Shown: positions 7,815 through 59,954 of the stretch, one piece after another | How the letters are laid out: every line of letters starts with the position of its first letter | Position numbering within the stretch: position 1 is the first letter of the stretch | Assembly: GCF_017813335.1 (NCBI RefSeq) | Contig: NZ_JAGIYY010000001.1 | Location: forward strand, 620,001-684,000 | Source of the DNA: Tianweitania sediminis | GTDB lineage: Bacteria; Pseudomonadota; Alphaproteobacteria; Rhizobiales; Rhizobiaceae | Direction: 5' to 3' | DNA: 64,000 nucleotides | Made by a program: the position numbers and the translations under genes | The notes under the pieces: generated by a model | Database searches by the model: none | Told to the model about the DNA's origin: nothing | Seen by the model: only the letters and a program-made list of their open reading frames with translations

Positions 7815-7939
7815 AAAGAGGCTCTCGGGAGTTGGCGCGCGCGAAAAGCGCCCGAAAAACGGTATTGCGCTCGGATTTGGGGCGCTCTTACCCGATTTTT
7901 CGCAGATGCGAAAGGGGTCAGCGGCAACGAGAGGGAACC

Positions 7940-8221
7940 ATGGGGCGGCTCGGCCGTTTTTTCGCCATGAAGACGCTCAGCCTTTCCACCTTGATTCTCA
8001 CTGCCGCTCTTGCCGCCACGGCTTTCCCGGCAGGTGCGGCCTCCCCTACTCTGTCAGCCGCAAAGGCGCCTGCTGACGGGGGCGATACGATCCGAGTCGT
8101 TCGCGCCGCTGCTGCGCCCAAGAGCGCCGATTGCGACAAGGCGACCTGGCCCTATATTCCGGCCGCCTGCCTGCAGCGCGAAACCGCGCCGCAGCCCTCA
8201 AACATCTCGCTCAACAACTGA
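7940..8221 (+). CDS. Small exported protein with conserved WPYIP-Cys motif
   Basis: A 93-residue protein with a typical Sec signal peptide: basic start, hydrophobic core around residues 13-26, and an Ala-rich cleavage region (FPAGAASP). The mature part is short and contains CDKATWPYIPAACL, a pair of cysteines flanking a WPYIP motif seen in many small periplasmic proteins of Rhizobiales. No function is known. ATG 7940 follows AGAGGGAA; an internal ATG at 7967 would give a more compact signal peptide and is a real alternative. Its last 24 bases overlap the 3' end of the convergent rsm22 gene. Confidence 0.7.
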   Translation: MGRLGRFFAMKTLSLSTLILTAALAATAFPAGAASPTLSAAKAPADGGDTIRVVRAAAAPKSADCDKATWPYIPAACLQRETAPQPSNISLNN

Positions 8222-48359: not shown

Positions 48360-49061
48360 ATGGAACAGTCGCTCGACATCTATATCGGTTGGGATTCACG
48401 CGAACCCATCGCCTACGACGTCGCGAAAAAGACGCTTGAAGATCACGCCAGCATCCCGGTGCGCGTGTTTCCGATCAAGGTGCAGGAACTCGTTGCCCAA
48501 GGCGCTTATACCCGTGACATCGACCCGCTCGCGTCGACGGAATTCACCTATTCCCGCTTCTTCGTGCCCTTCATGGCGGGCTACAAGGGCTGGGCGCTGT
48601 TTTGCGATTGCGATTTCCTGTTCCTGGATGACATTGCCGGGATCCTGCAATACCGCGATCCGTCATTGGCCGTTGCCTGCGTGAAGCACGACTACACGCC
48701 CAAGGCGACGGTGAAGATGGACGGCAAGGTTCAGACTAATTACCCCCGCAAGAACTGGTCGAGCTTCATGCTGTTTAACTGCGAGCATCCATCCACGCGC
48801 CAGCTGACGCCCGAACTCATCAACCGCGAAAGCGGCGCTTATCTCCATCGCATGCAGTGGGCGAAGGACGAGGAGATCGGGGAAATCCCGACACGCTGGA
48901 ACTGGCTGGAAGGCTGGAACGACAAGCCCGAGACCGGTTTGCCGGGCGCGGTCCATTACACGAACGGCGGACCGTGGTTCAAGGACTGGCAGAATGTCGA
49001 CTACGGCGATCTTTGGCGCGCCGAGGCCGACAAGGTTCAGCCCGGCTGGCAGCCGATCTGA
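48360..49061 (+). CDS. GT8-like glycosyltransferase
   Basis: A 233-residue protein with a GT-A-like layout: SLDIYIGWDSREPIAYDVAKKTL at the start, a FTYSRFFVPFMAGYKG segment, and FCDCDFLFLDD, which provides the D-x-D metal and nucleotide-sugar motif. VHYTNGGPWF near the end resembles the C-terminal His motif of retaining GT8 enzymes. The product may be a surface glycan; this is inferred from fold only. ATG 48360 is preceded by AGGAA. Follows the GT29-like gene by 132 bases and ends at a terminator. Confidence 0.7.
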   Translation: MEQSLDIYIGWDSREPIAYDVAKKTLEDHASIPVRVFPIKVQELVAQGAYTRDIDPLASTEFTYSRFFVPFMAGYKGWALFCDCDFLFLDDIAGILQYRDPSLAVACVKHDYTPKATVKMDGKVQTNYPRKNWSSFMLFNCEHPSTRQLTPELINRESGAYLHRMQWAKDEEIGEIPTRWNWLEGWNDKPETGLPGAVHYTNGGPWFKDWQNVDYGDLWRAEADKVQPGWQPI

Positions 49062-49078
49062 TTTGAATGACCCGAAAG

Positions 49079-49110
49079 GGCCCGCTGGTGGGCAGCGAGC
49101 CTTTTGTTTT
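49079..49110 (+). terminator. Intrinsic terminator after the GT8-like gene
   Basis: Stem GGCCCGCTG / CAGCGAGCC with one C-A mismatch and a five-base loop, followed by TTTTGTTTT. It closes the rightward transcript from the atp operon and glycosyltransferase genes before the convergent small-gene operon. Confidence 0.75.
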
Positions 49111-49134
49111 CGACTTCAGCCGACGGGAAGAGCG

Positions 49135-49362
49135 TCAGTCTTCGTTATAGTGGTTGGCTGAGTGATCCTGATGCTGCTCGGTCTGGATCTGCTTGCTGTC
49201 CAGACCGCGGGCGCTGGAATGCTGCGCCTTGTCGCGGTTCGAGAGGATCATGTTATCTCCAACCATGCCTTCGGGCATGGTGGTCATGGCGCCGGTGCCG
49301 GAGCCTTTGCCCTGCATTCCCTTGCCGCCAAACGTGTTCTTGCTACCGTGTCCTGTAGCCAT
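49135..49362 (-). CDS. Small hydrophilic protein A (75 aa), stress-type cluster
   Basis: A 75-residue protein rich in Gly, Met, His, Asn and Gln with no hydrophobic segment, so it is probably intrinsically disordered (MATGHGSKNTFGGKG start; DHSANHYNED end). No known domain. AAAGGAAA precedes ATG 49362 by a suitable distance. It is the last gene of a three-gene minus-strand operon that starts from the EcfG-type promoter at 49829-49853. Stress control is inferred from that promoter. Confidence 0.65.
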   Translation of the reverse strand: MATGHGSKNTFGGKGMQGKGSGTGAMTTMPEGMVGDNMILSNRDKAQHSSARGLDSKQIQTEQHQDHSANHYNED

Positions 49363-49385
49363 CGATGTTTCCTTTCGGGTTCTGC

Positions 49386-49595
49386 TCAGGCGGGGTGAGA
49401 ACCGCCGCCCTTCTTTTCCGAATGATGCGTGTGGTGGCTGTCCGGCTCTCCGCCGCCGCCCGAAACGTTGCTCCGGTTGCGCTGATCGGAGTCGGCACCA
49501 GGCTTCTTTGGATCAAGCGGATCCTTGGCATTTTCGTGCGATGCGCCTGGTCCACCTTGGCGGATGCTCGCCGGCGTTTTGCTGGATGTCGACAT
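49386..49595 (-). CDS. Small hydrophilic protein B (69 aa), stress-type cluster
   Basis: A 69-residue, strongly hydrophilic protein with SNVSGGGGEPDSHHTHHSEKKGGG in the C-terminal half, including a His-rich patch. Predicted disordered; no domain recognised. A strong AGGAGG Shine-Dalgarno lies about ten bases before ATG 49595. It sits 11 bases downstream of gene C and 23 bases upstream of gene A, so all three should be one transcript. Confidence 0.65.
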   Translation of the reverse strand: MSTSSKTPASIRQGGPGASHENAKDPLDPKKPGADSDQRNRSNVSGGGGEPDSHHTHHSEKKGGGSHPA

Positions 49596-49606
49596 TGCTG
49601 CGCCTC

Positions 49607-49792
49607 CTATCGGTCCTGCTGGTAACCCTGGTGCGTGGTGTTCACCTTGGAGTTGCCTTGTTGGCCTTGCTTGTCGGGATTTGCCGCTGAAGTTTGGCCG
49701 TGAATGGCGTCGTCGACCGAAACATTCTTAGCGTCACCGGGGCCGCTCTTGCTCTGGTTCTGCGGCGGAACAGGTGGTGGTTTGCCAGTCAT
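49607..49792 (-). CDS. Small hydrophilic protein C (61 aa), stress-type cluster
   Basis: A 61-residue Pro/Gln/Asn/Asp-rich protein without hydrophobic segments (MTGKPPPVPPQNQSK start; KVNTTHQGYQQDR end). First gene of the minus-strand operon. AAAGGAG lies nine bases before ATG 49792, and an EcfG-type promoter sits 37 bases upstream. Probably a disordered stress protein; function unknown. Confidence 0.62.
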   Translation of the reverse strand: MTGKPPPVPPQNQSKSGPGDAKNVSVDDAIHGQTSAANPDKQGQQGNSKVNTTHQGYQQDR

Positions 49793-49828
49793 GAGATGAC
49801 ACTCCTTTGCCCTTGAGGGTGCTTAGCC

Positions 49829-49853
49829 AACCGCGTGAGCGGGCGAAAGTTCC
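49829..49853 (-). promoter_or_regulatory. EcfG-type promoter of the three-gene small-protein operon
   Basis: Reading the minus strand: GGAAC (plus 49849-49853), 16-base spacer, GGTT (plus 49829-49832). This matches GGAAC-N18-TT, the general-stress sigma pattern, with G instead of C before GTT. Placed 37 bases before ATG 49792. Confidence 0.6.
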
Positions 49854-49878
49854 CGCCGAGCATCATGCGTGGGGCGCT

Positions 49879-49904
49879 GGAACAACGGGCAGTTTTCGTT
49901 GGTT
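49879..49904 (+). promoter_or_regulatory. EcfG-type promoter of the 49-residue gene
   Basis: GGAAC at 49879-49883, 17-base spacer, GGTT at 49901-49904, 34 bases before ATG 49939. Same -10 variant as the divergent promoter 25 bases away, so the intergenic region looks like a paired, outward-facing stress promoter. Confidence 0.58.
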
Positions 49905-49938
49905 CAGAAGCGTGAAGATCAATTGACGGAGCACTGTC

Positions 49939-50088
49939 ATGACCCCCACCCCGGACACAGCCCCCGCAAAGGACCAGCCTGATCAGGATCCCGCAGAAGG
50001 TTCGCGGGAAGTGATCGAGCGGCAGTTGAAAGAGGCGGACGAAAAGCCTGGCGGAAGCAACAACAAGGATCGACCGAAAGGCGGTTGA
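49939..50088 (+). CDS. Small hydrophilic protein D (49 aa), stress-type cluster
   Basis: A 49-residue charged protein (MTPTPDTAPAKDQPDQDP start; NNKDRPKGG end) with a central amphipathic EVIERQLKEADEK segment. No hydrophobic region. GGAG at 49928-49931 is seven bases upstream of ATG 49939, and an EcfG-type promoter precedes it. Similar short Asp/Lys/Gly/Asn-rich proteins are common in Rhizobiales stress regulons; the exact function is unknown. Divergent from genes A-C. Confidence 0.62.
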   Translation: MTPTPDTAPAKDQPDQDPAEGSREVIERQLKEADEKPGGSNNKDRPKGG

Positions 50089-50284
50089 TCCCGCCCCACG
50101 TCGGGTCGCTTAAACCGATGGGACGACAGGCTGCCTGGCCTCGACCGATTGCGCCTTTCATGCATAGTGGGGCTTTGCCGGAGCCTCTTTGCCTGATGCA
50201 GTCGATCGACAGCCTTTCTCTGAACCGCTTCCACAAGGAAGCCGTCAGACCGCACGGTCGCGCCTCCCCGCGGCTGCGCTGCGA

Positions 50285-51835
50285 ATGACGTCGACCTTTC
50301 GGCTGGACGGGCGCCGGCTTTCCATAGGTGATGTTGTTCGCGCGTCTTTGGGCCCGTCGAAACTCGAGGTGGCAGAGGACGTTCGGGCGCTTCTTTTTCG
50401 TGCCCGCGCTGTGGTGGAGCAGCATCTGGCAGCCGAAACGCCCGTTTACGGCTTGAACACGGGGCTTGGCGGCAATGTCGGGCATCGGTTAAAACAAGAC
50501 GAGATCCCCGCCTTCCAGGAGCAGACCGTGCGGGCCCGAGTGGCCGGCGTCGGCGAACCCTTGCCGCTGCCTGCCTGCCGGGCCGCCTTGTTCTGTCGTA
50601 TCGTCAGCCTGGCCAAGGGAGGAGCAGGGATCACGCCTGCGGTGTTCGACCTCCTCGTTTCCATGCTGGAGCGCGACGTTGTCCCGGTGATCCCATCGCG
50701 CGGTTCGCTTGGAACAAGCGACCTGATCATCCTGATGAGCATGGCCGCTGTCGCGATCGGTCGGGGCGATGCTTATTTCGAAGGCAAAATCCGGCCTGCC
50801 CGTGAAGCCCTGGCGAAGGCTGGACTCGCTCCCGTTCAGCTTGGTGCCAAGGATGGATTGGCGATCGGAAGCGCGTCGTCGGTCACACTGGCGACCGCAA
50901 CGCTTGCGCTGGAAAAGATCCGCCCGCTTCTGCTTGTCCATTTCGGCGCGGCGTCCCTTGCGCTGGAAGGCTATGGGGCCAATCCACGCGCCTTTGACCC
51001 CAGGCTGGCGCAGGCGCGGCCCGCAGCCCGGCAGGAAGCTGCTGCTGTGGCGTTTTCGCAGGCCCTGGCCGGCAGCAGCCTGCATGATGCGCCGCGTCAG
51101 GTTCAGGACGCCATCAGCTTCCGCACGCTGCCGCAAGTCACGGGCGTTGTCCTCGACTCCTACCTCGCGGCCTGCGCCGCCGTTGAAATCGAGCTCAACG
51201 GTGTTTCCGACAACCCTCTTGTTCTCCCCGCGGAAGGGGAGATGCACTCGGTTGCAAATTTCCACACGCCAGCCATTGCACTTGCCTTCGACGCCTTGGC
51301 GATCGCGATGACCCATCTCGCCACTGCGTCCGCTTACCGGTCGATCAAGCTGATGACCGGCCGCATGACGGGCCTGCCCAACTACCTCAGTCCGGTCGGC
51401 GGGGCCTCGGCAGGCTTCGTGCCGATGCAAAAGGCACTGGCAGCCCTTCATGCGGAGGTCCGCCTGAAGGCTACGCCCGCCAGCCTCGATGGGCTTGCGG
51501 TTTCCGACACGGTGGAAGACCTCGCACCGCAGACCGCGCTTTGCATCCGCAAGCTTGCGGAACAGGCGGACCTTGTTGCCTGGATGCTTGCCATGGAAGC
51601 GATGTTTGCCGCGCAAGCCGTGTCGCTGCGCCAAGCAAGCGGATCGCCGCACCGGTTGGGCGGCGCCGGGCAGTTCATGCAGGGCGTGATCCGCGCCGCT
51701 GTTCCGCCTCTGGAGGAAGATCGTGAAACAGGGCCGGACGCGGCCGTGCTGCGCGACGTTCTTTTCCGCCCCGACGTCATCGAGGGGCTGGAGCGGCTGT
51801 TTTCGCAAACGCTGCCCGAGCTCCAGCAATCCTGA
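50285..51835 (+). CDS. Histidine-ammonia-lyase-family protein with altered MIO triad
   Basis: A 516-residue protein of the aromatic amino-acid lyase family. The catalytic tyrosine loop PVYGLNTGLGG (Y55) is intact, as are the central ELNGVSDNPLV and QDAISFRTLPQV regions. The MIO-forming block, normally GSVGASGDLAPL, reads GSLGTSDLIIL: Thr144-Ser145-Asp146 replace Ala-Ser-Gly, so either the Gly is deleted or it is Asp. Such a protein may not build the usual cofactor and may have another activity. ATG 50285 has a weak ribosome binding site; an upstream in-frame TTG at 50189 is possible. A degraded regulator follows on the other strand. No other hut gene is present. Confidence 0.85.
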   Translation: MTSTFRLDGRRLSIGDVVRASLGPSKLEVAEDVRALLFRARAVVEQHLAAETPVYGLNTGLGGNVGHRLKQDEIPAFQEQTVRARVAGVGEPLPLPACRAALFCRIVSLAKGGAGITPAVFDLLVSMLERDVVPVIPSRGSLGTSDLIILMSMAAVAIGRGDAYFEGKIRPAREALAKAGLAPVQLGAKDGLAIGSASSVTLATATLALEKIRPLLLVHFGAASLALEGYGANPRAFDPRLAQARPAARQEAAAVAFSQALAGSSLHDAPRQVQDAISFRTLPQVTGVVLDSYLAACAAVEIELNGVSDNPLVLPAEGEMHSVANFHTPAIALAFDALAIAMTHLATASAYRSIKLMTGRMTGLPNYLSPVGGASAGFVPMQKALAALHAEVRLKATPASLDGLAVSDTVEDLAPQTALCIRKLAEQADLVAWMLAMEAMFAAQAVSLRQASGSPHRLGGAGQFMQGVIRAAVPPLEEDRETGPDAAVLRDVLFRPDVIEGLERLFSQTLPELQQS

Positions 51836-52366: not shown

Positions 52367-53452
52367 TCAGAGTTCTTCCGTGTGGCTCGGCAGGATGTTG
52401 GCGGTCGGACAGTGCAGATGCCAAACGATCTGCCCACTCGACCGGTCCAGGCTGGCGGTGCCACCCAAAGACTGCGGTGCGACCCGAAGAAGCACAACCG
52501 ACCCGAAGCCCCGGCGCTCGCCTTGGCGCGTTTCGCCGGTGAGCCCCGGTACCGTCTCTGTCCAGCGCAGGTCGAACTGAGAAGGCTCGGTATTCCCTCC
52601 CTGCGTGCTCCAGGTCACGGCGATTGTGCCGCCGTCGCGGGACAAGGCGCCGTATTTCGCCGAATTTGTTCCCAGCTCGTGGAAGGCCATACCGAGGTTC
52701 TGCACCGCAATGGGTGACAGCAAAATCGGTGGACCTTCCACCGAAATCCGTTCCTCGAGACCGTAAGGCGCGAGTTGGTGCAAAAGGAGCTCCGACAGGC
52801 TGGCCCCCGACCAGTCGGTGGAAACAAGGAGGTCGTGCGAGCGGGCAAGCGCAAGGATGCGATTGCGGACGGTGACCTCGAATTCCGCAGGATCCGTCGT
52901 GCTCTTTCTGGTTTCCCGGATGATGGAGTTGATCACCGCGAACTGGTTCTTCACGCGGTGGTTGATCTCGCGCAGCAAAAGGCGGATGCGGCGCTCGTTC
53001 TCCCGCGCCGCCGTGATGTCGCGCGCCACCTTGGAGGCACCCACAATCACACCGTGGCGATCCTTGATGGGGGACACGGTGATGGAGATATACACGGGTG
53101 TGCCATCCTTGCGACGACGCACCGTTTCGTAGCTTTCGACGCGGTCGCCGCGCTTGATGCGGCCGATGATCTCGTCTTCTTCCTGGATGAGATGGTCGGG
53201 GATCAGCATCGTGATCGAGCGCCCGACCGCTTCCTCGGCGGAATAGCCGAACAAGCGCGCCGCCGCCGGATTCCAGGTCTTGATGATGCTGTTCAGGTCT
53301 TTGCTGATGATGGCATCGAAGGAGGAGTCGACGATCGCCGCCAACCGCGCATGCGCGAGCGGGTCTGCGAGCTGCTCCAATCCCGCGACAAGCTCCGGGA
53401 CCGGGTTGTCGCTACGGAGCGGTTCTGCTTGCACGGCCACCGGATCGGTCAT
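52367..53452 (-). CDS. PAS-domain HWE-family sensor histidine kinase
   Basis: A 361-residue soluble kinase. A PAS domain covers about 35-150 (AIVDSSFDAIISKD, NPAAARLFGYSAEEAVGR, VSPIKDRHGVIVGASKVARDIT). The phospho-acceptor is H165 in REINHRVKNQF. The ATPase domain has HELGTNSAKYGALS (258-271) and the W-x-E motif at W297-E299 that defines HWE kinases. Such kinases often feed the PhyR-NepR-EcfG general stress pathway. No transmembrane segment. ATG 53452 is preferred since AGGAGA lies eight bases upstream; ATGs at 53506 and 53569 have no ribosome binding site. No partner response regulator is adjacent. Confidence 0.88.
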   Translation of the reverse strand: MTDPVAVQAEPLRSDNPVPELVAGLEQLADPLAHARLAAIVDSSFDAIISKDLNSIIKTWNPAAARLFGYSAEEAVGRSITMLIPDHLIQEEDEIIGRIKRGDRVESYETVRRRKDGTPVYISITVSPIKDRHGVIVGASKVARDITAARENERRIRLLLREINHRVKNQFAVINSIIRETRKSTTDPAEFEVTVRNRILALARSHDLLVSTDWSGASLSELLLHQLAPYGLEERISVEGPPILLSPIAVQNLGMAFHELGTNSAKYGALSRDGGTIAVTWSTQGGNTEPSQFDLRWTETVPGLTGETRQGERRGFGSVVLLRVAPQSLGGTASLDRSSGQIVWHLHCPTANILPSHTEEL

Positions 53453-53646
53453 GCGTCGCTTCTCCTGGATGATCTTGCTTCCATTATCTTCTTCTGAATC
53501 GCTCATCAGCGAAAGCAAGCCTTTTTTGCCGCCGTCGGAAGCAGCTGGATCAGCCGTGGCACTTGCCATGGGAATATAAGTGCGGCCGCGCGTGCATCCA
53601 TGACAGGCACGACCGCGTTTGCCTTGCTCCACGAAGGAGACCCATC

Positions 53647-59929: not shown

Positions 59930-59954
59930 AACCTTTCTTCGGCTGCTTAGTTCC
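59930..59954 (-). promoter_or_regulatory. Weak EcfG-type promoter candidate upstream of DUF389 gene
   Basis: On the minus strand GGAAC (plus 59950-59954) with an 18-base gap to TT (plus 59930-59931), preceded by GG. The predicted leader of nearly 100 bases is long. It overlaps a 9-bp hairpin (GCAGCCGAA / TTCGGCTGC, 59923-59946), so the match could be coincidental. Confidence 0.25.

Follow-up and report, generated by a model that had tools for sequence, protein, structure and literature searches.

Two outward-facing sequences of the EcfG promoter type, set between four very small genes of Tianweitania sediminis, raise the question of whether this locus is a target of the general stress response and, if so, what its products do. 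We explored it in the window (the whole stretch of DNA analysed, 64,000 nucleotides of contig NZ_JAGIYY010000001.1) and at homologous loci in other genomes. The features concerned are as follows:

48360-49061, plus strand: flanking gene with a match to glycosyltransferase family 8 below threshold
49135-49362, minus strand: p1, 75 aa; NRDK and GLD conserved, within LSNRDKAQHSxxRGLD
49386-49595, minus strand: p2, 69 aa; GGPGxSH and SGGGGExDxHH motifs conserved
49607-49792, minus strand: p3, 61 aa, the first gene of the putative operon; PPxP near the N-terminus and NTTHQGYQQDR at the C-terminus, both conserved
49853-49829, minus strand: predicted EcfG-type promoter for p3-p2-p1, GGAAC-N16-GGTT, exact pattern, GGAACTTTCGCCCGCTCACGCGGTT
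49879-49904, plus strand: predicted EcfG-type promoter for p4, GGAAC-N17-GGTT, exact pattern, GGAACAACGGGCAGTTTTCGTTGGTT
49939-50088, plus strand: p4, 49 aa; a core like EQDPAEGSREIVDREL conserved
50189-51835, plus strand: flanking gene, aromatic amino-acid lyase

The four small genes are as described in the initial annotation, three on the minus strand and one on the plus strand. The ORF bounds left gaps of 11 bases between p3 and p2 and of 23 bases between p2 and p1, a spacing as in an operon. The outward pair of GGAAC-N16-GGTT and GGAAC-N17-GGTT described in the initial annotation was confirmed, with 25 bases between the two sites, 36 bases from the minus site to the ATG at 49792 and 34 bases from the plus site to the ATG at 49939. 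Scans for RNA folding (z -0.33) and for terminators (5 on the plus strand, against a mean of 2.0 in shuffles) were uninformative at this locus.

The two sites share the hallmarks of the alphaproteobacterial EcfG (RpoE2/EcfG1/SigT) regulon, namely a GGAAC -35 element, exact in both, a spacer of 16-17 bases and a GTT-type -10 element; the spacing GGAAC-N18/19-TT, under which the pattern had initially been described, is the same as N16/17-NNTT. Among 37 homologue promoters, collected in a search that admitted N16 and N17 only, 31 had the shorter and 6 the longer spacer. In contrast to the motif GGAAC-N16-CGTT described for R. etli (PMC3892343), both window sites have GGTT as their -10 element, and EcfG dependence is here a prediction; the base preceding GTT in the 37 homologue promoters was G in 21, C in 10, T in four and A in two.

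We then considered whether the short ORFs are genes at all. Differences from the window copy piled up at the third codon position in p1 (2108, 1616 and 3449 at positions 1, 2 and 3), p2 (618, 751 and 1875) and p3 (1170, 935 and 2160), the three genes that this comparison covers; p4, for which there was no close enough pair, has homologues conserved across genera in sequence alignment. Being kept across genera and showing this surplus of third-position differences, p1, p2 and p3 are supported as real protein genes. The same surplus, together with conservation at the protein level, makes it extremely improbable that the ORFs are untranslated and that the transcripts serve as small RNAs induced by stress, even though R. 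etli is reported to have a non-coding RNA that depends on EcfG1 and carries the promoter motif (PMC3892343).

Short bipartite motifs arise easily by chance, and some of our tests left room for an explanation in which the GGAAC/GGTT pairs are fortuitous and a different sigma factor drives the genes. The window contains six matches to GGAAC-N16/17-NGTT; 300 first-order Markov surrogates contain 2.95 on average. In the position-weight scan proposed in the initial annotation, with a matrix built from the 37 p3 and p4 homologue promoters (own-genome copies excluded), the two sites did rank first (minus, 17.9) and second (plus, 17.3) in the window, but the single scores fell inside the range of the best scores of 60 surrogates (mean 15.8, maximum 20.9), so that the score of one site was dropped as proof. 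Genome-wide counts were dropped likewise, since the bare patterns do not exceed their reversed controls and are indeed rarer (85 against 157 for the CGTT pattern, 77 against 100 for the GGTT pattern). The divergent arrangement behaved differently: a pair within 60 bases occurred once in the window and in none of the 300 surrogates. Thus, either site alone is within chance, and the pair and its conservation are beyond it; because single-site scores and genome-wide counts prove nothing, it is position, pairing and conservation that carry the argument. The absence of a sigma-70-like site from 49000-50300 also speaks against a fortuitous pair, weakly, as only 0.2 would be expected there. With strict sites recurring at homologous loci in the numbers given below, we regard a chance origin as very unlikely.

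Two further sites of this type, elsewhere in the window, were noted. A third GGAAC-N16-GGTT (59930-59954, minus), third-best by weight matrix, has its nearest long ORF starting 129 bases from the site start, without a clear ribosome-binding site. A GGAAC-N16-CGTT (7934-7958, plus) lies just ahead of a gene that may encode a small exported protein (84 aa, signal-like N-terminus); from the site start to the ATG there are only 33 bases, so that a transcript from this site, if made, would be nearly leaderless.

Conservation of the -35/-10 pairs at orthologous regions, on which the initial annotation had staked its interpretation, was explored in homologues deduplicated by protein sequence, leaving out hits without a plausible start and those with E > 0.001 (p2 from 69 to 68, p3 from 80 to 79, p4 from 23 to 20). 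A strict site, defined as GGAAC-N16/17-NGTT at 40-130 bases before the start, was present at 57 of the 79 distinct p3 homologues, which are not 57 independent events because the species are related and the named set (L065-L144) is mostly Bradyrhizobium and Methylobacterium, and at 17/20 distinct p4 homologues; 89 permuted motifs gave means of 2.09 and 0.31, with maxima of 40 and 10. Both maxima came from a motif that retains GGAAC and has TTG as its second element, which we interpret as this element shifted in register. In a second control, which retained the true -10 element, permuted the -35 element and used loci outside the named set, p3 had 24/41 real sites against a mean of 0.31 (maximum 6), and p4 17/20 against 0.17 (maximum 4). 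Sites at -88 and -75 precede the S. meliloti R14 and S. medicae copies.

The other 22 p3 homologues lack a direct strict site: seven have one ahead of an upstream p1, three have a relaxed site and twelve have none by either rule, eight of these twelve lying outside the named set. Beyond the order, no site was found at L224 and L225, the two examined of three class-level p3 homologues (L226 being the third). As expected for a downstream gene, p2 did no better than its controls, with a strict site at 1/68 homologues against a permuted mean of 0.12 and a maximum of 5, i.e. below its largest control. Strict sites lay directly upstream of 13/107 p1 homologues (permuted mean 0.60, maximum 7), and at 43 loci (not deduplicated) p1 had no site within 400 bases; p1 is thus not always EcfG-controlled. 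Its use as a general EcfG marker was dropped, a strict site being present within 250 bases at 9 of the 80 named loci (best 80 of 372).

Gene order around the sites varies (loci not deduplicated): p1 is often downstream of p3. Site-p3-p2-p1, site-p3-p2 and site-p1-p3-p2 are frequent, and in the last (seven p3 loci after deduplication) the site still heads the cluster although the order has changed. Relatives of the cluster in other soil and plant-associated bacteria often carry the same type of switch. At p4, p3, p2 and p1 loci of other genomes, sites again occur in opposite-strand pairs, as a raw occurrence without chance baseline, and the far-side partners that could be read were an SDR oxidoreductase (five p4 loci), Hva1_TUDOR (L198) and a hydrophilic protein with no family assigned (L025, L054). 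At L206, L208, L209, L211 and L215, divergent sites pair the p4 homologue with the gene of a 266 aa SDR oxidoreductase, for which the Pfam check covers residues 1-90 of the L206 copy. At L053, L198 and L212, the two opposite-strand sites overlap as one near-palindrome, an element that could serve both strands. In S. meliloti R14 (L063 3199-3741), the gene just before p3 encodes a protein of 160 aa that matches nothing in Pfam; an EcfG-type site of its own lies 60 bases upstream of it, and S. medicae has the corresponding site. No constant neighbour gene emerged in the few neighbourhoods inspected, and function from neighbours was dropped as an approach: SDR oxidoreductase, Hva1_TUDOR, DUF3008, glucan genes and DUF4142 each occurred in different genomes.

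Control by EcfG presupposes that its regulators are present, and as in the known regulon they are encoded in the same genome: NepR (53.4 bits against a cut-off of 25.7), a PhyR family protein (381.9 against 240) and an ECF sigma factor of subfamily NF009199 (339.7 against 219), so that the general-stress switch is present. The genes are ordered nepR then sigma factor, with the PhyR family gene divergent, and it is from its position next to nepR and phyR that we call this sigma factor EcfG. The switch locus itself carries opposite-strand sites of the EcfG type, GGAAC-N16-CGTT preceding nepR and GGAAC-N16-TGTT facing phyR on the other strand. Close to the nepR-sigma locus, a third site of the EcfG type (L009 2724-3084) precedes a small protein, which we take to resemble membrane-anchored proteins of the DUF883/ElaB type.

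A PAS-HWE histidine kinase gene lies in the window at 52367-53632 (minus), about 2.3 kb from the four small genes. Kinases of the HWE/HisKA2 type are reported to coordinate the general stress response (PMC12148442).

Taken together, position, pairing, footprints at homologous loci and the presence of the regulators strongly support EcfG control of p3-p2-p1 and of p4 as a prediction. The initial interpretation of the locus as a stress module is likewise supported by the conservation of the sites, the test named for it in the initial annotation, and by the PhyR-NepR-sigma switch that the genome encodes.

What the products do was approached through families, composition and predicted structure. 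As the initial annotation had claimed, the four window proteins have no recognised domain: searched up to E = 1, Pfam yielded no family, not even the KGG repeat of YciG, and NCBIfam gave no match. Among the profile members (p2 homologues left out) there was a single chance-level family match, in one p4 member (E 0.07), and no solved structure was found for the p1 profile. Function from families or structures was dropped, there being no informative match.

Composition was more telling. Against the hydrophilin cut-offs of more than 6% glycine and a hydrophilicity above 1 (as given in PMC7448490; hydrophilicity computed here as the negative mean Kyte-Doolittle value), p1, p2, p3 and p4 all lay above, with 16.0, 15.9, 11.5 and 10.2% glycine and hydrophilicities of 1.13, 1.52, 1.45 and 1.72. 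Both cut-offs were passed by 103/106 p1 homologues (one of 130 aa or more excluded), 67/68 p2, 79/79 p3 and 11/20 p4 homologues, the other nine p4 homologues missing them, and by none of 45 mechanically picked long ORFs of the window. AlphaFold models had a mean pLDDT of 55.2 with a single 10-residue helix for p1 (alignment of 12 rows) and of 57.5 with nothing regular for p3 (8 rows); the alignments being shallow, these models are support for disorder rather than proof. Disorder of all four proteins, as first proposed, thus agrees with the models for p1 and p3, which have no confident fold, and for p2 and p4 would follow from composition alone.

The sequences are, at the same time, conserved in detail. 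An alignment of 13 p3 sequences has 17/61 invariant positions, which include the C-terminal QQDR, and one of 12 p1 sequences has 14 such positions. The conserved motifs (the p3 C-terminus, the p1 centre, GGGGE in p2 and PAEG in p4) suggest that these proteins do more than fill space. Such invariance, not obviously needed by bulk hydrophilins, would suit proteins that EcfG induces as specific adaptors or regulators, each motif binding one partner such as a protease, the ribosome or the polymerase. We consider this a tentative and rather doubtful account: nearly all p1, p2 and p3 homologues have hydrophilin composition, the distant p3 homologue at L225 lacks the QQDR end, and no constantly adjacent gene turned up in the few neighbourhoods inspected, although a partner need not be a neighbour.

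We return to the reading that we consider the more plausible, with some reserve: the locus is probably a bidirectional general-stress target, consisting of an operon and a divergent gene for hydrophilin-like proteins. In the published scheme, a stressed sensor kinase phosphorylates PhyR, which draws NepR off EcfG, and RNA polymerase with EcfG transcribes genes behind GGAAC-N16-CGTT-like promoters (PMC3188799, PMC3892343). From the motif, the regulators present and the conservation of the sites, two outward promoters would then direct transcription of p3-p2-p1 leftward and of p4 rightward. The products, small, glycine-rich, very hydrophilic and predicted to have no stable fold, would most likely build up in stressed or stationary cells and may act as hydrophilins, which under drying or osmotic shock would shield membranes, proteins or nucleic acid. 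Given the invariant motifs in each family, each may in addition have its own binding partner. Protection of stressed cells by p1-p4 is what we infer from composition and regulation.

All four families recur, and they are far from universal. Counting the own genome in each case, single-protein searches found p1 in 20/199, p2 in 18/199 and p4 in 5/199 genomes of the family; profile searches found p4 in 20/397 and p3 in 36/397 genomes of the order, p3 in 4/250 genomes of the class, and p1 in 11/259 genomes of the phylum, all 11 within the same order. Named p1 carriers include Bradyrhizobium, Methylobacterium, Azospirillum, Mesorhizobium and Rubellimicrobium among others (best 80 of 372). Plasmid records carried p3 in 148 cases (typed consensus query) and p2 in 140, mainly in Sinorhizobium and Rhizobium. 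In the open-licence literature, none of the four families was named in a title or in the opening of an abstract among the matches listed, and an earlier report elsewhere is possible.

Small hydrophilins under a stress sigma factor are already a known kind, of which GsiB of Bacillus is a parallel case, and the locus adds to it recurrent small hydrophilin-like proteins with a predicted control of this sort. The Salmonella hydrophilin YciG, reported to be under RpoS control (PMC5437024), is alike in being very small, with glycine above 6%, hydrophilicity above 1 and a stress sigma factor (predicted here); it differs in that the sigma factor is RpoS and not EcfG, and no sequence relation was found (Pfam E up to 1). 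Rhizobia offer a further comparison, since rpoE2-dependent genes and new ORFs have been described in S. meliloti 1021 (PMC3616915) and the p3-p2 homologues of S. meliloti R14 and S. medicae have EcfG-type sites; in the same account, 150 of the 202 rpoE2-induced protein genes of S. meliloti have no predicted function (PMC3616915). The present locus singles out small unnamed families, with recurrent EcfG-type sites at p3 and p4 and with p2 and p1 alongside in the cluster. Proteins of this kind could matter for the survival of rhizobial inoculants on seed.
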